Source: Muricea muricata (lineage: Eukaryota > Cnidaria > Anthozoa > Malacalcyonacea > Plexauridae). From it: a DNA stretch of 64,000 bases. A program made the translations under genes and the position numbers. Of the stretch, positions 529-42,850 are shown one piece after another. The notes beneath the pieces are model-generated. The model ran no database searches. It was not told where the DNA came from and was given only the letters and a program-made list of their open reading frames with translations. Each line of letters starts with the position of its first letter. Within the stretch, counting starts at the first letter, position 1. The stretch covers positions 87,932,103 to 87,996,102 of the forward strand of contig OY979716.1 of NCBI GenBank assembly GCA_963855995.1, in the 5' to 3' direction.

Positions 529-633
529 TTAGAGCTTGGTGAGCATACAAAAACAATGAATATTGTGATTTTAATTGTCCTCTGTCGAATTCTAGTTTGA
601 GATTAAAGCCTTGCCGTGCGAATATTGTCGACA

Positions 634-1840
634 ATGGAGGTCGCTGAAGGGAAATTAAAGACAAAACACACTCAATTAAACATAACAAATAGAACAAAGC
701 CTATTGTGGATAATGGTCAAGCCGAAGCGATAGAAAGACATCAAAAAACTCTGAGCACTGTGATAAATGAAGTAGATCAACTGCGTATAGAAATCGAAGC
801 CCTCAAAATTACAGAGCAAGTGAAGGAAGAGGATTTAGATGCGTGGAATGCAAATATAGTGACACAAATTGCAAAGGGAGATCAAAGTGTGGAAATCTTG
901 CAAGAGTGGCTCAATAGTCGAAAGACAGAACGCGAAAAGTACGAGAGAGAAGAGCAGATTAAATTCGAAGTAAAATTACAAAAGACCAAAGCTAAATTCA
1001 AGGCAGAACACGAGGGAAATCAAAACAGTTCTCCCAATACTCATAGTGAAACGACAAATATTCAAGTGAAATTACCTAAATTAGTCATCACCAAATTTAA
1101 CGAGACATTTACTGACTGGAATAGATTTTGGGGACAATTTACAGAGTCAATCGACAAATCCAGTTTGCCAGCAATTACAAAGTTTTCATACTTGAGAGAA
1201 CTGTTAGATGACAAGGTCAGGAAAGCTGTAGAAGCCCTGCCATACTCTGCAGAAGGCTATAACAGAGCAGTAGCAATCCTTAAAGAGCGGTACGGAAAAG
1301 AATGCGAGATTGTCAAGGCATACGTAAAGGAAATATTCAAGCTTCCTCCAGTTCTGACAGCCAATGTGAGGAAGATTCATGAGTTCTGGAAGAAACTAAC
1401 ACAGTGTGAAATCACTCCAGACTATGAATAAACTTTCTCAAGTAGACGGTGCAGTAGCTATGACTCTAGACAAATTGCCAGCTATCAGAGGTGATCTCGT
1501 TCGTACTGGCCCTGACTGGGAGAAATAAGACTTCATACAGCTTACAGAGGCTCTTCGACTTTGGACGAGAAGGAACCCAATCACTGAGAATGCCAATTCC
1601 AAAGACAAGGACCGAAGACAGGACAAAACGAGTCGGAATTACCGCACTCATCAAGGGATGGGGACTTCGCATACATGTGTATATTGCAATGCTGCAGATC
1701 ATAAATCGACCACCTGCCGAACCGTTAAAACATCAGAAGAACGCAGGAGAATCCTAGCAAATAAAAAACTTTGTTTCAACTGTACTGGACCCTCCCACCA
1801 AGCAGCGGAATGTAAAAGTACCGTGACATGTTACAACTGT
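634..1840 (+). pseudogene. gag: BEL/Pao gag, 5' part
   Basis: Starts at ATG 634, just after the LTR leader. The N-terminal 130 residues are charged and helical. They are followed by a DUF1759-like capsid region with the family signature KLPKLVITKFNETFTDWNRFW, then TKFSYLRELL, and a region ending near 1431. A frame change near 1432 leads into a segment reading LSQVDGAVAMTLDKLPAIRG. This ends in zinc knuckles CVYCNAADHKSTTC and CFNCTGPSHQAAEC and the start of a third (CYNC), which is cut at 1840 by the nested transposon. At least two frame breaks make it non-functional. Confidence 0.85.
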
Positions 1841-2165
1841 ATGGTGGCCCATTGACGCCATAGTAGTTTTTACAAAATTGTCATGTTTTTTCCTAGATAA
1901 ATATAAAATATGACGATGATTTTTTATTTTTTTTTAAATAATTATTTATTATATTACTTCTTTAAATTATATTTTAGTGATATTTTTTTATTATTCTTTT
2001 TTTATTTTTTTCTTGTTTTTATTTATTTTTATTTTAGTTCTACTGCATTTATTTAAAAAAATAAAAATGTGCGCCATGGCCCATCAACGCCATAGCAATA
2101 TTTATAAAGAATAAAAAATCATGCTACATGGCCCATTGACGCCATAGACCATAAGGCCTTTCGGG
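1841..2165 (+). repeat. left terminal inverted repeat, alpha-kinase transposon copy 1
   Basis: Pairs as reverse complement with 6062-6388. The centre is very AT-rich. Three copies of a motif close to TGGCCCATTGACGCCAT lie at 1841-1863, 2075-2095 and 2128-2148. They are likely transposase-binding sites, judged only by repetition in both ends. Confidence 0.93.
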
Positions 2166-2299
2166 ATTGGTTAAGAAGTTCATTGATATCAAGTGGAAAC
2201 ACTGCAATCTGTCTCGAGCTCGTGGTCATCGCTATCAGAATCAAACTATTTTGCTTAAATTTACATATATTTTCATCGTATTATAAGTATATTTTTGTT

Positions 2300-3548
2300 A
2301 TGTTGAAGAGAAGACCTGCTTGGGATAACTATAAAGAGAAGGTAGCGAAGAAGAGAATGCGGAAAAAAGAAGAAAAAGCAGCAACTGGTCCAAAAGGGGG
2401 GCTGACTGTTCAGCGTTTGTCGGCAAACGTGGAGGGCAAATGCCAAAAGTATTCACGCATTGGGCCTTTGACGTTAGTTCCCTGTGAGAAAGAACTGACA
2501 GTAGAAAACATCAAAGCTGCATGTAAGGCACACTTCAACACGGAATTGGAATGTGATGTTCTTGCTGGGGAACGTGGTCCTTCCTTTACCGAGTCAGGAC
2601 AAATCCAGAACTGGAAAGTTTTGCATGTGCGCTTCGTGGAAATTCTCGAACACAAACAACGAACAAACAGTCAACACACCACAGTGAGCCAACTGCCAGA
2701 AGTCCCCCCAAAAGCTCGTTCCAAAATTCGCACTCAAGGCAAACAACATCTGTCAGTGTCAGACCGTCACCATCTGTTGTGCGTTCAGTGTCACTAAGTC
2801 AGATGCTCAAATTGGGAAAAGTCATCGTCCCAGATATTGATGTGGTAACTCTTCGGCTTGAAGAGTTTTGCATCTCAAGAATGGAGTGGTTGGAACCTTT
2901 TGAGGTGTCGCTTTCACTGGAAAGAAAACCCTTTGCTAATGGGGCATTCTGTGAAGCGTTTTTGGCAAAATCCATTGCTGGTATGCCCAAAGGAAAGTAT
3001 GTCCTCAAGAAGTATTTGGAGCCAGAAAAAAAGGAATCGAGACACTGTTTAAATCAATTGAGCTCCATACACAAAAGTCAGTTCAACTAAATGCCCTAGC
3101 TCGTAATTTTGCTCAGAGTATGGCTTCTGAGATCCAGGCTGCAGAATTTGGAGAAACGTTTAGTTATGGTAAGGTCTACTATTCTTCTCTAAATGACGAA
3201 CCTGTAACCTTAGAGAATCACCTTGATAGTGTTTTCGAGAAGTTCATCCACAATACTGGTGAGTTATGTGTGATGCCTGCAGATGCTAGTGAACTAAGCC
3301 TTAAAGCTGAGACATTTGCTCATTATACATTCCAGAAATCTAACCAACAACTTATGGTCACTGACATTCAAGGTGTCAATTATTCCCTGTGTGATGCAGA
3401 AATTGCAACGGCTGAGCTGGAGGACCCTGAAGACCAATCAATTCGTTTCTGCACTGGTAATATGTCAGATGCAGCAATTAGATCCTTTTTTACATTCCAT
3501 AAATGCAACATATACTGTGAGATGCTAAAACTTTCAAAGCAACAATAA
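2300..3548 (+). pseudogene. alpha-kinase (MHCK/EF2K-type) gene inside the transposon
   Basis: Start ATG at 2300, just inside the left inverted repeat. A basic N-terminal tail is followed by a region shared with the second copy (KCQKYSRIGPLTLVPCEKEL; CDVLAGERGPS). From about 2790 comes an alpha-kinase domain: a glycine-loop-like ANGAFCEAFLAK, the probable ATP-binding Lys in YVLKKYLEPE, FAHYTFQKSNQQLMVTDIQG (zinc-ligand His and the DxQG motif), GNMSDAAIRSFF, and the zinc-binding tail FHKCNIYC (His-x-Cys-x3-Cys). Two frame changes, near 2740 and at an A-run near 3027, break the reading frame; an unseen intron could explain the first. The family phosphorylates Ser/Thr on helical targets (EF-2, myosin heavy chain). 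A role in transposition is unknown. Confidence 0.88.
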
Positions 3549-3927
3549 ACCAACTTTAAATTAATGTGGATTGTATAGCGTGTTTTCATGTATGGTTAAT
3601 TATTCCCATATTTGGTGTTCATTATCCGCTGTGTTGAACATCAGTACTTCGAAGTCAGACACCAACATGGCCGCTGTAACACCACATGAAAATAGCCTAT
3701 ATATCCTGTATATTGATAAGAGACTGAAAACTGACTCCATGATCATATAATCATATGTTTTGTTATTTGTTTTGCCAGTTGTCTAATCACTTTATTCCAT
3801 TACCATTTTGTAGTGTTTATAAATTAATAATATAAATATGTTATTTTGTAAGTGGAGTTTGTTCCCATTCTAGGGAAAACTTTATAAACAAAGTGTAATA
3901 TTTTATCTGACAAAAGATCAAACTGGG
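3549..3927. other. intergenic space between convergent genes
   Basis: Non-coding spacer between the stop of the alpha-kinase gene and the stop of the minus-strand integrase gene. AT-rich with AATAAA-like words for both strands. No other structure seen. Confidence 0.6.
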
Positions 3928-6046
3928 TTATGTCCAAATGTGATCTTTTAAATATAAATATGCATTGGAAGCCTGGGCTGGCTTAATGTCCTCTGTATTT
4001 GGGATGTGTCTTTGGCATTCTTGGCGAAAATCTTCATCTAAAAAGTCATCATTAGCATCCAGTACATGAGAAAACTCAGCCACTTCTGGTAGTTGCTGAT
4101 CGGTTACAGGAATACCACACTTTTCCGCACCATGTTGCTCTGGACATGTGTATATATGTTCTGGCACACCAGTAGGAAGCTCCTTGCCCTTTTGTTTTCT
4201 CACTCAATGATTATTCCACACTGATACCCTGAACACATCAAATTCCTTTTGTACCACAGGAATATAGACATACGCTAGAATGTTTCTGCAAATAAAAAGT
4301 GCCAGGGTTTTAGTTAAAGTAATTTGCTTAACAACTGTGTGTCCTACAATCATATTTCGATCAATACAGAGTTCAAATTAGTCAAGAAAAAAACAATGTG
4401 CAATAATGTGGCTTTGATATTTTGCACATTGACTGGAAAGTGATGTGCAATTTCCACTATCTGGTCCAAAATCATGTGCAAATGGTGCACTTCTAATAAA
4501 TTTCTCATCTAAGAACTCATTTTGGGCTTAGTTGAATTGGTAATTACATTAAGGAGTGGAGCAGTAGTGCATGCACAAGCTTGCTCTTCAGAAGTGATTA
4601 TCATTCCTGCATTCCAAAAGTCTAATTAGTGCATAAAATTCGATATATTGTAGATGCATGCATATATATTAATTTACTTGGATCTATGACACTTGATGGA
4701 GATCATGCATTGTGGGTTAGAAATTGCAACATTTCATGAATAGTATATAGCAAAAGTATACCTTTCAGTTTCATTGCTTGGATCATAATAGCCATCTTCA
4801 AGCAAAGATTTTAATTGCTCCTTGAAGTAGCCTTTCATTCTGTGTGATAACTCTCTCCACCATCTCTCGATCTTGTTTTCCGTGGAGGGCCCATATAGAA
4901 CACAGCCATCTTCGTTCTCCACATCGCCATGCTGTGCTCGTAAATAACTGTGGATAGTACACATCACACCTGTTTCTGTTCCCCTATCCACAAGTATTCT
5001 TGAGGGTAACACTATAAAATACAGAAAATGTTACACTTATTTTTGTACAATAATGTCAATATGATATGATTGTGCTCAAAAAGGGTGCTAAAACAATGCC
5101 TGTGAATGATTATTTCAAATGCTACTCAAAATGCATTTAGGACTCAAAACAAGGTACAATACATCCAAGATGGCTCAGAGCAGCCAACATTAAAAGCTAA
5201 CTTGTTTCTATGTTATATAAATGTTTTTTGGTTGTTGATTTTAACGGGAGCATATTCGAGGGAGAGTCATACTCGATGCTTAATAAAGGGTATAATAATA
5301 ATCTAAATTGAAGAACCTTAAGAATTTTAAAGATAAAGGCAAATATTATATTACCTCTACTTTGGAATAGATAGTCGAAGTAGAATCTGCCAACAATGCT
5401 TGGATTATTGTTAGAAGACCATACTCTCAAGAAGTTTACTCTGCTGCTGAAAGTATCCTGGGCACCATAGATGCACAGTGGGAATACAGACTTTTGAAAA
5501 CCACACAGTTTATCATGCCCATCAAGTGACATTGTAAAATCAGCTCCCTAGATAAGAAAATCGTCACATTTATTAATATAATGTTTAGTGCAACAAAATA
5601 TGCAACATTTATACGCTTACAGTCGATGTGAATGCTTCTTTCCTTCGTTTGCGTTTTGGTTGTCCCACACCACCTCTGTCTTGTAAACCTTGAGGGTTGA
5701 CATCGACCATCGCGTCATACACAACGTTTCTAGGTACATTCAATGTGTGTACTTCACGAATTTTCTTGTGTAAAGCACGATAGCCTAGGAATCTTCCTGG
5801 CCCATTCATCTCTTTTTCCACAGCACATGTGACATCGTCAATATTTGTGTCGTACTCGATGTATTTTATACCAAAATGATGCAGGCGACGTGAGAAAGTC
5901 CTTACACTCCACGCATACATCGGATACTTTACTTTTAACAAATCCACAATTTCTGTTTGATGCAAATTCTGGCCTACATATGCTTTGAGGTCGTCTTTTA
6001 ACTCCATATTGCCTTCCCATTCATTATTCCTTATCCGAGTCGCCAT
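3928..6046 (-). pseudogene. integrase-like DDE transposase, four exons (copy 1)
   Basis: Exons by GT-AG borders: 6046-5621, 5547-5355, 5011-4762, 4285-3928. Exon 1 starts at ATG 6046 and has a helix-turn-helix-like region (SVRTFSRRLHHFGI, MNGPGRFLGYRALHKKI). Exon 2 opens the RNase H fold with catalytic Asp in MSLDGHDKLCGF. Exon 3 has the second Asp in LVDRGTETGVM and the Glu in GPSTENKIERWWREL. Exon 4 is the C-terminal region. An in-frame TGA at 4206-4204 lies where the second copy has an Arg codon; CGA to TGA is a typical CpG decay. Otherwise the frame is open. The family is the integrase-core type known from fish and invertebrate genomes. The gene converges on the alpha-kinase gene. Confidence 0.88.
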
Positions 6047-6061
6047 GTTGGAATATCATGC

Positions 6062-6388
6062 CCGAAAGGCCTTATGGTCTATGGCGTCTCTGGGCCATGT
6101 AGCATGATTTTTTATCCTTTATAAATATTGTTATGGTGTCGATGGGCCATGGCGCACATTTTTATTTTTTTAAATAAATGCAGTAGAACTAAAATAAAAA
6201 TAAATAAAAAAAAACAAGAAAAAAATAAAAAAAGAATATAAAAAAATATCACTAAAATATAATTTAAAGAAGTAATATAATAAATAATTATTTAAAAAAA
6301 AATAAAAAATCATCGTCATATTTTATATTTATCTTGGAAAAAACATGACAATTTCGTAAAAACTACTATAGCGTCAATGAGCCACCAT
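6062..6388 (-). repeat. right terminal inverted repeat, alpha-kinase transposon copy 1
   Basis: Reverse complement of 1841-2165. It carries the same three motif copies in inverse order, at 6080-6100, 6131-6151 and 6366-6388. The integrase gene starts only 16 bases inside it, so the repeat probably also serves as promoter. Confidence 0.93.
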
Positions 6389-7239
6389 ACAACTGTGCTA
6401 GAAGACACCACACCTCAATCTGTGAAAATCCAAAGAAACCTGAGGGGTGAATGTCAGCCCATAGGGCAGGGGAAAACCAAGTTATTTATCCTGTTGTGGT
6501 TATCGAAGTCGATGGAATAAAGACACGAGCGCTACTTGACACCGGCTCGGGGAGCTGCTATGCTTCAGCCAAACTTATGGACGCTCTGAACAAGAAACCG
6601 AAGGAAATCCAAACAAAACGGATTGAAATTATGCTCGGCTCAACAACAACCAGAGTTAAAATCTACCCTGCAACTATCAAGGGAGCTGATGGTCAGTTTA
6701 CAATGGAAGTCGAAAGTCCATAAGCCATATCTGATGGAAATTGATAATCCTCGGTATGAAGAGCTGCTGAGCAAGTATAACCATTTAAAGGGTGTGAAGA
6801 TAGATGATCTTGATGACAAACCACACCTTCCTATACATGTAGTTCTCGAAGTGAACGAGTATGCCAATATTAAGACAACAGCAGCGCCACGAGTTGGGAA
6901 ACCCGGACAACCCATTGCTGAATGTACTCGCCTTGGTTGGGTGTTAATGTCGCCTGGTAGAGAGGATGTGACAAGCCCACTTCTGCTAACTCGATCAGTC
7001 AGCACAGACTATGAGCAGCTGTGCTCCTTGGATGTGCTTGGACTTGCTGACAAACCAGAGAACGATCAAGAAACTGTATACCAGGAATTCAAAGAGCAAC
7101 TTCAACGGAACGAGGCTGGTTGGTATGAGACAAAGTTGCCTTTGAAGGCCAACCACCCAGAATTGCCAACAAACGAAAGCGAGCAGCCGAAGAAGATTAC
7201 AGCAACTTGTCAAACGGCTCGAGCGAGATGGGAATTATG
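6389..7239 (+). pseudogene. pol: BEL/Pao gag end, aspartic protease and DUF1758-type region
   Basis: Begins with the rest of the third zinc knuckle (RRHHTSIC). A retroviral-type aspartic protease follows, with the catalytic loop LLDTGSGSCYAS near 6533-6570 after VIYPVVVIEVDG. A frame change near 6715 leads to the linker typical of BEL/Pao polyproteins, including HLPIHVVLEVNEYANI and TRLGWVLMSPG. It converts the polyprotein to mature parts. Broken by frameshift. Confidence 0.8.
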
Positions 7240-8254
7240 AAGACTATGACAGCATAATTCAGGAGCAGCTTCAGAGCGGTGTTTTAAAGAGCACATACAG
7301 AACCCAAGGGCAAGGAATACTACATACCACATAAAGGAGTTGCTAAGAAAGATGCGGAAAGTACAAAGATGCGGGTGGTCTACGATGCGTCTGCGTGGGA
7401 AAATGTGAAGCATCCCTCCCTGAACGACTGCTTGCACCCAGGACCATTTCTACAAAACATACTTTGGAACATTCTAATAAGATCACGATTCCTTCCGGTC
7501 CTGTTGACAGGTGACCTGCAGAAAGCATTTCTGCAAATTAGAATAAAGGAAGAAGAGAGAGACTCCTTACGGTTCCACTGGAGAGCGCCTGGCAGTACCG
7601 AAACTCGAATATACCGTTTTATGAGCCTTGTTCGAGCTAACCTCATCCCCTTTCCTTCTCGCAGGAGTCCTCAACCAACACTTAGAACTGTGGGAACGCC
7701 AGTATCCTGAGATTGTTAAAGAGATTCGTGATGGCCTGTATGTGGACGACCTCATGGCGGGTGGTGCAACAGTTGATGATGTGCAAACAAAGAAAGCCAC
7801 AGCCATTGAAGTTTTCCAGGACGCATCCTTCACGCTTCACAAATGGCACTCAAATGAGAGAGAACTCGAAGCCAGCAGTAATCCACCAGCAGATGATGAG
7901 TTAACCTATGCCAAGCAGCAATTAGGAGAGAGCCGACCGGGGACAAAGCTTTTGGGACTAGCGTGGGACAAGGATAAAGACACCTTCAAAGTTGGTTTGC
8001 ACAAAGATGAAACTATTTCTACAAAACGGAACGCTCTGTCTCAACTGGCAAAGATCCATGACCCCCTGGGACTGGCCTCACCAACAACTTTGCAAGGGAA
8101 AATTCTCTATCGTGAGATGTGCGAGATCAACATAGCGTGGGACAGTGAACTTCCAGCTGAATTGAAAAAACAATGGATCAAGTGGTACTCAAAACTGCCA
8201 AGTTACATCAAAGTTAAGCGAGCTCTGGCACCATATCAACAACCAATCTTAGAA
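7240..8254 (+). pseudogene. pol: BEL/Pao reverse transcriptase
   Basis: Segments read KMRVVYDASAWENVKHPSLN, then LLTGDLQKAFLQIRI with the first catalytic Asp, then after a frame change near 7625 SSPFLLAGVLNQHL and the active-site box LYVDDLMAGG near 7737-7766. The connection domain has HKWHSNERELE and HDPLGLASPTTLQGK, a BEL/Pao hallmark. At least two frame changes disable it. Confidence 0.85.
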
Positions 8255-9050
8255 ATTGTGTTGCATGCATACGGAGATGCGAGCACTCGGGGAAATAGCG
8301 CAGTAATCTACGCGGTCGTTAGGCAGGAAAATGGGACAACTCAAGGACTCGTCTGCTTTAATCTCAGTTGGCAAAGCGGAATTTAACCATTCCTGGCTCG
8401 AGTTAGTGGCTAACCATATGGCAATCAATCTTGCAACCAATATTCAACTGGCCATCAATCTATACCCAGTGTCGGTACATTGTTAGCTCGACTCGACTGT
8501 GGCACTATACTGGATACGTGGCCAGGGGGAGTACCGGCAGTTCGTTGCGAACAGGGTACACAAGATACAGCAGCATCAGAACGTCAAGTGGCATCACGTG
8601 CCGACCACCGAAAACCCCACAGATTTGGGCAGCCGCGGCCGAAACGTTGATCATCATCTGCCATGGAACCAAGGTCCAAGTTGGCTGAGCGAAGAAACTG
8701 AATGGCGACCAGACATAATCATAGAGCCCAACGCAGATTCCAATGCGGAGTTAAAGGTGACTCGAAGCGTCCTTGCTGCAACAGCACAAGTCCATGATGA
8801 TTTTGACCAACTTCTTGATGCTCACGAAGTGCACAAAGTCCTGCGAATTTGTGCATGGATTCAGAGGTTTATCAGCAACTGTAGGTCCCAAGCTGGAGAC
8901 CGGCAAGATGGTCCACTAAATGCAATCGAGATTGAACAACAGAGACTTTGGTGGACCAAGCGAGCACGACTAGAATGCCAAGAAAGACTGCTTCAAACAA
9001 GACCAGCTCCAACCGAATCTGCAGCTAAACAGCAAAGATATATTTGAATG
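8255..9050 (+). pseudogene. pol: BEL/Pao RNase H and connection to integrase
   Basis: RNase H-type start HAYGDASTRGNSAVIYAV near 8260. After frame changes near 8385 and 8490 comes ALYWIRGQGEYRQFVANRV with HVPTTENPTDLGSRG, the usual BEL/Pao end of RNase H. A linker to a stop at about 9047 follows. Broken by at least two frame changes. Confidence 0.8.
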
Positions 9051-9165
9051 CAGAGGGTGAATTGAGGGAGAGTTCCCTATCTACCTGCCAGATAGTCATC
9101 CATTTACGTACGGAATTGTTTGATAAGCGCATCCATCGACATTACACGGCGGTGTCTCGCTGACA

Positions 9166-10304
9166 ATGGCAAAGGTATGGGACGTCTATTGGGTTCCCAG
9201 ATTGCGTTGCTTAGTCAAGAAAGTGAGAAGTGCCTGCTGGGGTTGCAAGAGATTTAGAGCCCAAGCATACCAATCCCCACCCCCAGGAAACCTTCTAAGC
9301 ACAAGGACACAAGGGTCTGCGCCATTCCAAGTAATCGGGGTGGACTTTGCAGGCCCAATTTACTACCAGTCAAAACCCGGAACTGAAAGCAAGGCATATC
9401 TGGCCTTGTATGCATGCAGCCTGACAAGAGCGTTATATATAGATTTATTGAAGTCATTGGAAGCAACCGAATTCATCATAAGCCTCAAACGGTTTATTGC
9501 ATGCCGAGGCAGACCAAAACTTATATACTCGGACAATGGTTCGACATTCAAGGCCACCAAGAAATGGCTCCGGCAAGTGCAGAAAGATGAGCGACTTAAT
9601 GATTACCTGGCTGGCCTTAACATCAAGTGGCAATTTAACTTGAGTCGTGCTCCTTGGTGGGGAGGCCAATTTGATTGTCTAATTGGCCTTTTCAAAAACG
9701 CCTTCTACAAGACTGTAGGGAATCGCGCATTAAGATGGATGGAACTCGAAAAGAGGTATCTGTAGAGGTATCTCTTAATAATAGGCCTCTGAGTTACGTA
9801 GAGGAGGACGTCCAACTACCACTGCTAACCCCTAACTCGATGTTAACCATTAATCCTAATCACCTACCTGAGCTGAAGGCTTAGCAGGTTGACGAAGCAG
9901 ATTTACGGAAGCGAGCCAAACATTTTAAGAAATGTAAAGAGGCTGTATGGAATCGTTGGACAAGAGAGTATATCAGAAGTCTTCGTGAGCAACATCGTCG
10001 CGCTGGAGGAAAACAAACGCCATACCCGAGCGTAGGAGAAGTAGTGATCATCAAGAGCGAAAAGAAGAACCGGAATACGTGGAGACTAATCATTGTCACT
10101 GAATTGGTAAAGAGAAGAGATGGAATCACAAGAGATGCAAAGTTAAGAGTTGGTACTGGCAACCTTGAACATGCCCTGCAACACCTGTGTCCCCCTGCGA
10201 TTGGCAACAACCACCTCAACTTGACCAAATGCACCCATGTTTCAACCAAGACCAAAAAGAGATGCAGCGGTGGCGACGGAAGTGCAGATTCAACAAACAG
10301 CTGA
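9166..10304 (+). pseudogene. pol: BEL/Pao integrase and C-terminal DUF5641-like region
   Basis: Zinc-binding part CWGCKRFRAQAY, then the core with Asp in IGVDFAGPIYY and Asp in KLIYSDNGSTFKA. The place of the catalytic Glu reads GGQFDCLIGLFK instead of the usual GGxFERLIG, so Glu appears to be Asp. A frame change near 9745 leads to VSLNNRPLSYVEED. After a stop near 9882 the C-terminal domain continues (AVWNRWTREYIRSLREQHRR; VGEVVIIKSEKKNR) to 10304. Dead copy. Confidence 0.85.
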
Positions 10305-37273: not shown

Positions 37274-37347
37274 CTGAATGTATTTTAATTTTTTTAAATT
37301 TAAATTTAAAAATACTTTAGTTCTACGTGGCCCAGCGCTGCCAAATG
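37274..37347 (+). repeat. left inverted repeat (partial), copy 2
   Basis: Pairs with 42047-42150. Contains the motif TGGCCCAGCGCTGCCAAAT, comparable to TGGCCCATTGACGCCAT in copy 1, and an AT-rich core with TTAGTTCTAC, also found in copy 1 (GTAGAACTAAA). Confidence 0.8.
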
Positions 37348-37435
37348 CTAAAAAATTTAAAAAATAATTCATTAGACATGCAGTAAGTGGGACATGCGTT
37401 TACGTACTGCATAATTTAATAAATTATAGCCAATA

Positions 37436-40300
37436 ATGGCGGGTTTTTGGAAAAACGATCAGAAACTAGAACACGATTTAAAGAAATACGTTTCATAAGA
37501 AAAGACTACAGTGCATATAAGTGGAGTTTGAGAACTCTGGGTCGAAGGTTGAGACATTTTGGTATTCATTATATTGATTCTAATATGCCTCTCGAAGTCG
37601 CTAGGGAAGCCGCTGAGAAAGAACTTGATGGCCCTGGTGCAATGCTTGGTTATAGGGCCATGACCCTAAAGATTTGGCAAAAGTATGATGTTAAAGTGCC
37701 TAGAGCGCTTGTTCACGATTTGATGTTCGAGCTCGATCCTGATGGTTTAGCTAGAAGAGCTCCAGGCGCCAAGGCGAAAAAAGCTAAAGGCCACTTTGTT
37801 ACTATTGGTCCAAACTGGACATATTCCATGGATGGACACGATAAGATGATGGGCTTTCAGAGTTCGGCCTTTCCCATTGCAATATATGGGTGCATTGATA
37901 CTGCCAGCCGGAAATTAATTTGGCTCAAAGTTTGGACAACAAATTCAAACCCATTGTTTGTTGGCAAGTGGTACCTACAATCATTGTTGGAGACTGGTAT
38001 ATTGCCAAACTATATTCGCCTAGATAAGGGAACTGAAACCACAACTATGAGTACTATTCAGGCATACCTCAGAAGCCAACAAGACGACCTGGAAGATCCA
38101 ACTGATTGCACACCCAAGTTCTTAATGCTTTTCTTTATTTATATATAAAGCTTTTATGATATTTCTTTCCTTTTTTGGACTAAAAAATACTTTGATTCAC
38201 TAATTGAAAATTGATTGTTAGATTGAAAGATGGTGGAGGGAGCTACATGAACGGTTGGAGAAGTACTTCAAAATTGGTCTAAACTGGTTAAAAGAAGAAT
38301 GTCACTACAACCCACAAGATGAGATAGACAGGTCAAATTAAATGTAATAAGTTAAACTTAATTGATATACAGCTGCATTTTAAATCATTTTATGTATTAT
38401 TCAACAGGTCATTGCTTTTGTACATTATGATCCCCATGATGCGAAGGGAACTCGATGAATTTCGCCAAACAATATGGAATAACCTCCGCATTCGTGAACA
38501 GAAAGACACACTCATGGCTGATGGCATTCCAAACCATATTTTTGAATTCCCTGAAAAATATGAAATGGAAAACAAAGGTCTCAGTATGTTATTTTACCTG
38601 GGAAAACTTCCATGTGATATTTTACTAAATGTCCAAATAGGCTGGTTCCTAACTTTTCTATATTTTAGCTACATGGATCTAAATATTAAACATAGAGGAA
38701 TTGAAGCTAGTGTACATTATGAGTATGGTGCACAGCTGTCTTTTATTTATTAGACCAATTTCCCTGTCCAATATTTAAAGTCCCCCCCCCCCTCTGTTTG
38801 CCTAGTAAATTTGTAATTTTATTAATTGCCCTCCTATAGGTTTTAAAGTGACCACCCAAGATCGTCAAGAAGTAGCTGAATTATCAGGAGTCCTTGATGC
38901 CCCAGATGATTTTTTATCAGCAGAATTGCTACCCTACTGCTATCTATCAGCAACCATGTGTTGTTATTAGCGAAACTTGAGCTTTATGGGGTTACTGGTT
39001 TAGCTTTTAATTTATTCAAATCTTACTTTGCTGAACGTTTACAGGTATGTTCTGTAAACGGTAAACTTTCAAATCCAAGAATAGTAAATTGTGGAGTACC
39101 ACAAGGATCGATTCTTGGCCCACTTCTATTCTTAGTTTACATCAATGATTTGCCAAACTGTCTACAGTTTACATCTGCTCTACTGTTTGCAGATGACACG
39201 AATATAGCAGTAAGTGGTAAATCAATTGAGGAAATGGAGCGGACCATCAATCTTGATCTTCTTAATGTCAAGGAGTGGCTTTCAGCAAACAAACTCAGTC
39301 TGAATATTGTTAAAACTGAATATCTTTTGATTGGCTCTCCCCATAATATAAAACATTTGAGTTCAGAACCGAATGTTTGCATTGGCAATGAATCGATAGA
39401 AAGAGTTCAAGCGACAAAAGCTCTTGGAGTCCAATTAGACGAACATCTAGCATTTAACAGTCACGTCGATCATATTTCCAGTAAAATTTCTGCTGGTATA
39501 AGTGCATTAAAAAGAATTAAAGAATATATGGATCAAGAGACTTTGAAATCGGTCTACTATGCATTAGTCCAGCCTCATTTTGATTACTGCTGTGAAGTTT
39601 GGGATTCAATTGATGCGACCCTTTCAAATCGATTACAGAAGCTTCACAATAGAAGTGCCAGAATCATAATGAGCAAAAATGAGCATGGTCAGTCAAGTCT
39701 GGCCCTTGGTCTTCTTGGATGGAAAACCCTGGAAGAACAGAGGGCTCAGAGTACAGCTAGACTAATGTATAAGGTTTTGCATAATATGGCACCAACAAAG
39801 TTAAATGAGATTTTTAATACGTCTAATACTGTTCATGGCCATGATTTACGAGGATCTAATTCCACTCTCTTCCTTCCGCGTCCAAGAACTGAATATCTTA
39901 AAAAAAGCATCAGTTTTAGAGGCCCAAAAATATGGAATTCTTTGTCCGAACAAGCTAGAAATAGCGAATCTCTGTCTATATTTAATGCTAACATCTCTAG
40001 CTAATGCCAGCCTGTTCAACAATAATATATGATTGTATTAATGTAGTAATTTATTGATTTTGTACATGTTTCTAATTGTGTATATTTATAGTTGTATCAC
40101 GTCCCACTTGGAAATCAACATTCAGTTGAAGTGGCTAACATGTTGAAATAAAGTTTTAATAATAATAATAATAATTACGCACATTACTTTCGGCTATATT
40201 GCCAGAGCCAGAAAAAACCCAGTGCATTGAATTTGTTCAAAAGTATTTGTTACTCAAGCAAGGTTATGCAGATTCACTGAGACCATCAGAAGTAGAATAA
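37436..40300 (+). pseudogene. integrase-like DDE transposase (copy 2), split by LINE
   Basis: ATG 37436 (MAGFWKNDQKLEHDLKKY), then a small deletion or frame change near 37495 relative to copy 1. The main exon runs to about 38120 with WSLRTLGRRLRHFGIHYID, ELDGPGAMLGYRAMTLKIW, Asp in YSMDGHDKMMGFQ and Asp in IRLDKGTETTTM. Further exons: 38222-38331 (IERWWRELHERLEKYF with the Glu), 38408-38577 (MMRRELDEFRQTIWNNLRIR), 38840-38950. After the LINE the C-terminus resumes at about 40177-40300 (LPEPEKTQCIEFVQKYLL, stop). The catalytic triad is present. Confidence 0.85.
38951..40174 (+). mobile_element. 5'-truncated CR1/L2-like LINE, ORF2 end intact
   Basis: 348 open codons: reverse transcriptase with GVPQGSILGPLLFLVYINDL and the active site LLFADDTNIA, then the thumb and C-terminal part (VQPHFDYCCEVWD, SARIIMSKNEHGQSS, FRGPKIWNSLSEQAR). 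The 3' end has AATAAAG and an (AAT)n tail at 40150-40174, usual for such LINEs. Being unbroken it is the youngest insert here. It cut the last exon of the integrase gene. Confidence 0.88.
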
Positions 40301-40515
40301 TGAATATCAACAATTAACATGTCAGCCATTATATATAATAAATTTGAACAAATTAAATAACATTTTAGAAACACAAAATTATACATATATTTTTTTAGGA
40401 TGCATGCATACATGCATGCAGAAACAGAACATCAGGATAGTTTCTATTTCACTAAAGACCAACTGTTTGTTTTTGAGTCCCAAAAGCTCTTACATTGGAC
40501 TTTTTTATGTGCCAA

Positions 40516-41901
40516 TCAGTCCTTTACTTCTTCTGGGATTAGACCAAGAAGATTACAAAATACACTACATTCGTGAGATGTAAAGAAATGAATGTAGGCT
40601 TCAGTTGATAGATTCCCAGCACAGAATAGTAGATGGTGATCATCATCATATATGGTTCTTACTGTGGCAATTTCTGGATCCGTTAAATCATATCCCCCTC
40701 CTTGTGTGTCAACCAATAACAGCTTCTTGTTTGACTTTACAAATGAAAAATGAACAAGGCTTTCGGCTTTCCCTTGTTTCTCAGTGTCACTGTTTCGTGA
40801 AAGGGAGCCATCACTGTTCACATACTTTTGGAAGGTACCAGATGCAAACTGTTCTATAGTTACAATTTCGTTTGTGGACAAAATCTTCCCCAAAAAAGCA
40901 TCAACATACCTGAAACACTTGCCATACACATTTTTATTCCCATCTTTTTCCACTTTTGATGCAATTTGTGACGCAAAGTTATCTGCCAATGCTTGCATCT
41001 GAATTGACTTACGTGCATGATCTTCTTGGGTTTCATTTACTGTGGCAATGAGCTCAATTGTTTTGGGCAAGAAGCGTTTAACAACCTAGGTTTTGTCCTC
41101 AAAATTAGGTGACTTCGACGTAGCTCTGTACGCTGCTCTAAACCCACCATCTGCAAATGCCTCCTTTTCAATGGTAAAATGTGCAGATACTGGTGGTGAC
41201 CACACCATATCAGAAATGCTAAACTTTGAAACTTCGATAATTTCTTGCTATGTTTCGGTGGCTGTAATAGCGTGTCCAAGTTTCATCATGGTTGTAACAC
41301 TCAGACTTTTTGGAACGTTAGGAGGAGCTCGAAACGAAACTTCTAATTTACGTTTTACACCAAGGGCACTAGTCGAATGTGGCACAGGAAGTTGTTTAGG
41401 ACGTATAGATGATGTCGATGCTTCACATTGGGCAGGGCTAGACGTAAATCTGTAACTGCGAGTATTGCTGGTAATGATACTGTCCACCTCGCTCTCTGCA
41501 ACAACAAATTTAATATGGATTAGCTTGAGGTTAGGTAGTTGCAAAATCCTTGTACACGAAGGGCCACGTTCGGTTGCAAGTACGTCACATGACATACCTT
41601 TGGGTCATTTCTTGAAATGGCTGTTGCAAGCGGTAATGATATTGGGAATGGTTACTTCATCAAACACGAATGGTACAAACTCTTGTGGCCCAGTTCTCTC
41701 GTACTTTTTAGCCTTTCCAGCAGCTTCGGTAGCTAGAGGTTGTGCGGTGATTTCTTTATTTTCTAAGATACTCGAACCACCAGCATTACCAGCATTTTTG
41801 CTTGTCTGCCCGCTTTTTGTGTTTTTTTGCTTTGTGGCAACATTTGTCTGTTTTCGTTTTATTTCATTTGCAAACTTTTTCCACTTACTGATTTCAGACA
41901 T
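40516..41901 (-). pseudogene. alpha-kinase gene (copy 2)
   Basis: ATG at 41901 (MSEISKWKKFANEIKRKQ). The shared N-terminal region KAKKYERTGPQEFVPFVFDE is followed by an in-frame TGA (41607-41605), then CDVLATERGPS. After a degraded stretch (AFADGGF glycine-loop region, VVKRFLP with the Lys) comes an open C-terminal part: ESLVHFSFVKSNKKLLLVD with TQGGGYDLTDPEIATV, FCAGNLSTEAYIHFFTSHEC and CSVFCNLLGL. The zinc-binding His-x-Cys-x3-Cys pattern and the DPEI motif are kept, so the C-lobe resembles functional alpha-kinases more than copy 1 does. Confidence 0.86.
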
Positions 41902-42046
41902 TGCAAATTTTAAAATACAAATAAACAGATAAACGAGATGAATTTGTAATGCATCAGTGATGGCGACTGCTGTACTTGTTTCGTGCACTTACGCGATAGT
42001 AGTTAGACATTTTAGTTCAATAATAAAGGTATGTGAAATCATTAGT

Positions 42047-42207
42047 ATTTGGCAGCACTGGGCCACATAGAACTAAAGTATTTTTAAATTTAAATTAAAA
42101 ACTGAGTTTTTTTTAAAATTTAAATTAAAAAAAAATTAAAATACATTCAGTTAAGGATAACTTATTTGTTTTTATTTCTAACATAATTTGGCACCCCTGG
42201 GCCATCA
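42047..42207 (-). repeat. right inverted repeat, copy 2
   Basis: Holds two motif copies, ATTTGGCAGCACTGGGCCAC (42047-42066) and TTTGGCACCCCTGGGCCATC (within 42185-42207), separated by AT-rich sequence. This spacing mirrors copy 1, where the outermost motif lies at the very end. Confidence 0.75.
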
Positions 42208-42850
42208 TAGACATGTTCAATTACAATGTCTGTCTTGCACGGTATGCATTGCTTTGCAAAGAATTGTATGATGCAATTCAGAAAGGAGATGGTGGAAGAA
42301 TTTTCACATGCTGGAAGTTTTTGTTGGTGCATTTCAGAGCAGATATTAAATGAAGCACCAAATATGCCTTCGAAGCACTTTACTACATTCTGCAAACAAT
42401 CTCATTGTTATCTCCAAGACAAGCTTACCGTCTGAAGTGGAACCGTTCTGTGAAGGGTAAATATATGAATGTTCCACTAGACCTTGACCTACAACATGAC
42501 AACAGAATGGTAATTGAAGCTATTAAGAAGTTAGGTGGCAATGTAAATGAAAAATCTGTAAGTAGAATTGTTAAAGCCCAAGCAATTGCATGTGATATGT
42601 TGCAATCATTTGATAAAACAATGCATGTGATCAGAAGGTCTGGTAAGCACTTCAAATCATTTGACGAGAAGGATTTCAAAAAAATTCTTGCCAATCTTGT
42701 CAAAGAGGAAGCTTCTATTGAGGAAGGAAGGAAGGCATTATGCATACTTTAGCAACTGTAAAAAAAGCAATTTGGATGATCTTGATGTTCATAAGATGCA
42801 TCAATGGGTCAATGAACACAAGAAAAAAATAGATGGTGGACACAGGTAGT
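42208..42850 (+). pseudogene. DUF6589-type gene, C-terminal part
   Basis: Resumes after copy 2: DMFNYNVCLARYALLCKELY, WKFLLVHFRADIK, then QAYRLKWNRSVKGKYMNVPL, DLDLQHDNRMVIEAIKKLGG, SGKHFKSFDEKDFKKILANL and finally FSNCKKSNLDDLDVHKMHQW with a frame change near 42750. PLDLxxEHDN and KxLGxNxxE are the C-terminal signature of DUF6589 proteins. About 100 residues between DWHTKMK (36765) and here are missing. Confidence 0.72.

Follow-up and report, generated by a model that had tools for sequence, protein, structure and literature searches.

An alpha-kinase gene is a regular partner of an IS3EU-type transposase in the genome of Muricea muricata

In a 64,000-nucleotide stretch of the genome of the cnidarian Muricea muricata (contig OY979716.1, positions 87,932,103 to 87,996,102 of assembly GCA_963855995.1; hereafter, the window), we identified a transposon in which an alpha-kinase gene and an integrase-type transposase gene face each other, and the same convergent pair was found at 85 loci of this genome. 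Judged by its ends, target duplication and transposase, the element is an IS3EU transposon, and we read the kinase as a long-standing accessory gene of the lineage, kept under selection and co-inherited with the transposase. Alpha-kinases are cellular signalling enzymes, and the presence of one as regular transposase partner in many families of a single animal genome raises the question of what a cut-and-paste transposon gains from it. The reading that we favour, with somewhat more confidence than doubt, is that the window contains a decayed two-gene IS3EU copy, whose kinase is a selected accessory that would help in the nucleus, with the transposition complex or the chromatin of the element as its target.

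The regularity of the gene pair was assessed in the 453-Mb assembly containing the window (G000). A search with the Alpha_kinase profile (PF02816), in which 150 of 182 candidates were scored, gave 142 matches, corresponding to 133 loci after merging of fragments. Transposases were searched with exon 1 of a kinase-bearing element (L012) as query, with 150 of 560 candidates scored and the 150 places found merging to 147. At 85 of the 133 kinase loci the transposase exon 1 lies convergently downstream, at no more than 10 kb, at one locus it is near but otherwise oriented, and at 47 none was found. The number of convergent pairs expected by chance is far smaller, with a mean of 0.46 and a maximum of 5 in 1000 random shifts, in which contigs other than C1-C3 were set to an assumed 12 Mb. 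Seen from the transposase side, a kinase partner is present at 85 of the 147 merged hits, the others including weak hits and paired inverted fragments. Contig C1 (27% of the assembly) is unusually rich, with 104 of the 133 alpha-kinase loci.

The twenty best PF02816 hits were fetched, and 17 of these resemble the window kinase, 16 of which have the transposase downstream on the opposite strand; the seventeenth, L022, has neither transposase nor inverted repeats within the fetched stretch. The other three (L009, L010 and L019) have cellular-looking sequences, and both the transposase and the inverted repeats are absent from them. These cellular-looking hits, and the normally cellular nature of alpha-kinases, would fit a host kinase gene caught once by this insertion, but that explanation is refuted by the 85 convergent pairs, by the presence of kinase and transposase places in all four two-ended copies of the window's own family, and by the grouping of the transposon kinases, which is separate from these three hits (support 0.86).

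A count starting from the element ends gave the same picture. The terminal pattern TATGGTGGCC-N7-GCCA has 98 occurrences on one strand and 96 on the other, against 0 and 0 for the reversed-pattern control. From 100 of these 194 places, all on C1, ends up to 15 kb apart were paired (68 paired, 32 unpaired), delimiting 34 elements, of which 27 contain both genes, three only the transposase, one only the kinase and three neither. Gene content was scored with 68 C1 transposase places, the weak or duplicate hits omitted from this set lying outside all 34 elements. The idea of a two-gene element, which the original prediction had put forward from the single copy in the window, thus withstood the check for kinase-less copies. 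Two tandem arrays hold eight of the 85 pairs and eight of the 27 two-gene elements, which are therefore not independent insertions; the arrays (C1:49.70-49.75 Mb and 50.08-50.11 Mb) comprise five and three two-gene elements with a spacing of about 11.48 kb, and are probably tandem segmental duplications containing the transposon. In addition, at eleven places the transposase exon 1 is found twice, inverted, 0.8-3.1 kb apart and with no kinase found (e.g. C7:8839029-8840615, C2:7032642-7034187 and C3:32997164-32998745), possibly representing a non-autonomous derivative of foldback type, each arm of which contains exon 1.

The two genes have also diverged together. Kinase and transposase distances are correlated, with a Mantel r of 0.56 (p 1e-4) for ten representative families and of 0.95 for all 18 loci. 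The kinases of four families are only 40-50% identical and keep full frames, and among the kinases of L012-L015 the differences at the three codon positions are 0.41/0.31/0.62, least at the second and most at the third. This pattern is absent between two copies of one family, L021 and L023, as it should be if their changes arose after insertion. Selection was read from this pattern, since L021 and L023 differ too little, and the families are too near saturation, for the ratio of nonsynonymous to synonymous substitution rates. A kinase that is a mere passenger, without benefit to transposition, is compatible with the three transposase-only and three gene-less elements among the 34 delimited copies, which suggest that the ends may move without a kinase in cis. 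We nevertheless regard it as improbable, because a passenger would decay, and this kinase recurs in ten families, keeps full frames with the mark of codon-position constraint in the four examined and has a conserved active site.

The window element runs from 1840 to 6389, with the ends TATGGTGG..CCACCATA (start TATGGTGGCC, finish GAGCCACCATA). Its inverted repeats of about 327 bp (1838-2165 and 6061-6391) are 95.5% alike over 332 aligned columns; they agree with the original prediction, in which each end had been placed one base too far inside. An 8-bp target duplication had also been proposed, and the flanking letters do repeat across 8 bases (ACAACTGT), but the extra two are the element's own terminal T and A. 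A duplication of 6 bp, CAACTG, is the better reading because related copies with TATGG..CCATA ends have 6 bp. Among 16 fetched loci with inverted repeats, exact duplications adjoining such ends were found in 12 (6 bp in 11, 7 bp in one), whereas the remaining four yielded none by this rule; the end search covered TAYGG/CCRTA ends. A hAT, P or Zisupton-type element, which an 8-bp duplication could indicate, was rejected in view of the integrase-type transposase and of the related duplications of 6 bp (once 7). Counting the window and the 12 loci, the duplication begins with C or G in 12 of 13 cases and ends with C or G in 12 of 13 (e.g. CAACTG, CACCAG, GTTCTG), which may hint at a target preference.

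An uninterrupted relative of the target site is present in the same genome (L029, C3:3211343-3211943). Its match to the left flank (94%) extends as far as the final base of that flank, its match to the right flank (96%) starts at the very first base, and the two overlap by exactly the 6-bp target. The L029 bases across the insertion site translate by eye to CYNCARRHHTSIC, which we take to be a knuckle-like gag motif, in agreement with the earlier proposal that removal of the element restores a gag zinc knuckle. The disrupted host is a decayed BEL/Pao-type retrotransposon (window 616-9765; DUF1759 5e-20, Peptidase_A17 1e-23), with the insertion in its gag region.

The inverted repeats of several families (e.g. 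L014, L015, L024 and the window) carry the motif TGGCC-N7-GCCA at the end and again inside. In other families it is found at the end only or inside only, and in six loci once between the repeats. This motif is a plausible transposase site.

The transposase gene lies on the minus strand and has four exons, as predicted by eye. Its third exon matches the rva_4 'Integrase core domain' (PF24764, 1.2e-6, window 4737-5012), and the predicted catalytic triad consists of the D of SLDGHDK, the D of LVDRGTE and the E of STENKIE, with 35 residues between the last two (DD35E). No HHCC zinc domain ahead of the catalytic core was seen by eye in exon 1, and no Pfam family was reported there. The kinase gene matches PF02816 with 87.1 bits, against a curated cut-off of 21.3 (2e-24, window 3072-3545, plus strand). 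A protein of 424 residues (P0035) aligns with the whole gene, in pieces of 76-91% identity. The original prediction of an alpha-kinase gene beside a spliced DDE integrase-type gene is therefore upheld as regards the nature of both genes, with the correction that the kinase is split over three frames by two frameshifts and that the last transposase exon has one in-frame stop, at about 4204. For these reasons the window copy is probably inactive.

Intact kinase frames have 412-429 residues, with a basic tail, a probable ubiquitin-like (beta-grasp) fold in the N-terminal region, as modelled, and the alpha-kinase domain. In structure comparison this domain matches the TRPM7 kinase (1ia9, E 1e-17). 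Where the alignment to 1ia9 places the catalytic and zinc residues, 61 relatives picked for near full length show either no variation or a conservation of at least 90%. The gene thus belongs to the PF02816 family by its score and by these positions, the window copy itself being frameshifted. TRPM7 (ChaK) and myosin heavy chain kinase A share with it the alpha-kinase fold and the aligned lysine, DxQG and zinc-ligand positions, but they were solved as cellular kinases, and the profile match spans the kinase part only.

Several features place the element among known transposons. The established IS3EU superfamily is marked by TA..TA ends and, in most cases, by duplications of 6 bp (PMC10045372), and the window element has a 6-bp duplication, TATGG..CCATA ends, repeats longer than 30 bp and an integrase-like DDE transposase. 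The original prediction knew of no transposon family with an alpha-kinase as second gene; this view has to be given up, since the pairing is in print for fungal IS3EU families bearing TET/JBP, where the TET gene lies between oppositely oriented transposase and alpha-kinase genes (Kojima 2025, PMC12730594). These elements of rust fungi and Tuber have the 6-bp duplications, repeats above 30 bp, TAYGG..CCRTA ends and opposed genes seen here, which makes the window element a member of a kind already described; the opposed alpha-kinase and transposase genes of this kind are present in the window and at 85 loci. The differences are the animal host and the TET/JBP gene, for which there is no place in the window, where the two genes are only about 380 bases apart. 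Of the papers listed for the open PMC literature, PMC12730594 was the only one found to connect a transposon with an alpha-kinase, Repbase Reports and subscription papers lying outside this search. The present work extends this kind to an animal, quantifies how regularly the two genes occur together within a single genome, and contributes their correlated divergence, the predicted domain at the kinase N-terminus and the probable misnaming of kinases (see below).

Other comparisons are more distant. IS3EU/GingerRoot elements share the TA..TA ends, the usual 6-bp duplications and a DDD/E transposase with its first D 100-300 residues in, but no kinase is named in the main text of PMC10045372. The Zymoseptoria element Styx, related to IS3EU, combines an IS3EU-type transposase with further genes, which in the sections of PMC10853768 used here are GATA, CCHC and DUF3577 proteins, with no kinase described. 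The single-exon rva_4 (PF24764) genes of M. muricata itself are likewise of integrase type, though distant, with an identity of about 33% in one example, but of their 150 best hits only two lie within 10 kb of a kinase, neither of them convergent (a count based on 135 of the 142 kinase rows, the seven omitted all lying within 2 kb of rows used). In these 150 best hits, then, rva_4 genes in general do not carry the kinase. The family has 1177 first-look candidates genome-wide, and 91 of its 150 best hits fall on C1.

Integrase-type transposases bind the ends of their element, excise it and insert it with a staggered target cut. By extension from the superfamily, the DD35E transposase would bind the ends, perhaps via the repeated TGGCC-N7-GCCA motif, cut the element out and join it to a 6-bp staggered target. 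The kinase would act in the nucleus as a regulator, a placement suggested by its basic tail, where it could dock through the probable ubiquitin-like domain and phosphorylate the transposition complex or element chromatin, so that expression or transposition is allowed. In this detailed form, the nuclear regulator is a tentative proposal, to which we give slightly less than even credence. Cut-and-paste transposons have one to two conserved proteins, and host-derived ones may regulate transposition (2012 meeting report, PMC3520738). A precedent for an alpha-kinase at chromatin, by analogy and not as evidence for the present kinase, may be seen in the TRPM7 kinase fragment, which enters the nucleus once cleaved and has been tied to histone H3 Ser10 phosphorylation (PMC8128914). 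Taken further, the kinase could be an anti-silencing enzyme that opens element chromatin by similar histone phosphorylation, and the standard partner of this IS3EU lineage since before the cnidarian families split, possibly before animals and fungi; we consider this extended version unlikely. If it were true, the fungal relatives that place a TET/JBP demethylase between transposase and kinase would have taken the strategy one step further.

Alternatively, the kinase may act on host physiology, through translation as eEF2K does, or through stress or immune signalling, rendering germ cells permissive. eEF2K is itself an alpha-kinase, its structures match well in profile (7shq, 4.6e-24) and in fold (9pcq, rank 6, E 4e-16), close behind TRPM7 and myosin heavy chain kinase A, and the fold ranks do not discriminate between these kinases. 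The basic N-terminus and the divergence correlated with the transposase slightly favour, as soft evidence, a transposon-centred role, and we judge an action on the host to be the less probable course, though clearly better placed than a passenger.

Relatives of the kinase were found in other cnidarians. In a wider profile search (capped at 7988 candidates scored, 120 of 140 hits listed), all listed hits with a species name are cnidarian, although the majority bear no such name. Among listed hits with a species name, relatives of the whole kinase come from Paramuricea, Dendronephthya, Acropora, Exaiptasia, Actinia, Actinostola and Clytia; in its catalytic part, the window kinase shares 84% identity with a protein of Dendronephthya. 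Transposase relatives, among the matches listed, come from some of the same cnidarian genera and from Lottia, Patella and Ciona. A kinase and a transposase relative have neighbouring gene numbers (P0129, gene13470; P0009, gene13471), and Exaiptasia LOC110237035 and LOC110237033 lie on same-sized contigs, as do one Dendronephthya pair and one other pair. Linkage outside this genome is thereby hinted at, from gene numbers and contig sizes and not from a map. On viral contigs, queries P0001 and alignment A3 gave 2 and 39 pattern-matching stretches, none encoding a kinase relative. An expansion of alpha-kinases has been reported in rust fungi (PMC4469406; PMC5295586), and it may have the same source.

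Six cnidarian proteins related to the transposon kinase in full or in part (P0019, P0027, P0031, P0072, P0074 and P0093) carry the names TRPM6, myosin heavy chain kinase, alpha-protein kinase 1 (ALPK1) or eEF2K. They are probably misnamed, and annotators should be aware that transposon-kinase relatives sit under cellular kinase names in cnidarian annotations.

Table 1. Features of the window element and of a second relic (window coordinates)
Feature	Position	Strand	Basis
Target site duplication CAACTG, left copy	1834..1839	.	flank comparison, empty site L029
Left terminal inverted repeat, begins TATGGTGGCC	1840..2165	+	95.5% to right arm
Terminal copy of motif TGGCC-N7-GCCA	1845..1860	+	motif search
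Subterminal TGGCC-N7-GCCA copy	2077..2092	+	motif search
Subterminal TGGCC-N7-GCCA copy	2129..2144	+	motif search
Alpha-kinase gene	2300..3548	+	frame pieces 2300-2797, 2779-3090, about 3027-3548; P0035 alignment; one uninterrupted frame where relatives are intact
N-terminal part: basic tail (by eye) and predicted ubiquitin-like (beta-grasp) domain, moderate support	2300..2656	+	AlphaFold model
Most of alpha-kinase catalytic domain	3072..3545	+	PF02816 2e-24
Transposase exon 4, in-frame stop near 4204	3928..4285	-	limits predicted by eye
Transposase exon 3, second D in LVDRGTE and E in STENKIE	4762..5011	-	limits by eye; rva_4 1.2e-6
Transposase exon 2, first catalytic D in SLDGHDK	5355..5547	-	limits by eye
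Transposase exon 1, N-terminal region	5621..6046	-	donor by eye
Right terminal inverted repeat, ends CCACCATA	6061..6389	-	alignment to left arm
Subterminal TGGCC-N7-GCCA copy, right arm	6082..6097	-	motif search
Target site duplication CAACTG, right copy	6390..6395	.	flank comparison, empty site L029
Second, more decayed two-gene relic of same kind	37292..42209	.	right end CCATCATA at 42209 (by eye)

The second relic in the window has transposase pieces from 37447 on the plus strand and a kinase at 40519-41829 on the minus strand; its left end was not found. Between the two genes lies an open reading frame resembling, by eye, the reverse transcriptase of a long interspersed nuclear element (38958-40004). 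Elsewhere in the genome, L030 (C4:8687000-8696000) holds a different, single-exon rva_4 gene with a frame of 518 residues, for which neither a match to the window-type kinase nor long inverted repeats were found, and the open reading frame of 496 residues beside it appears HECT-like by eye.

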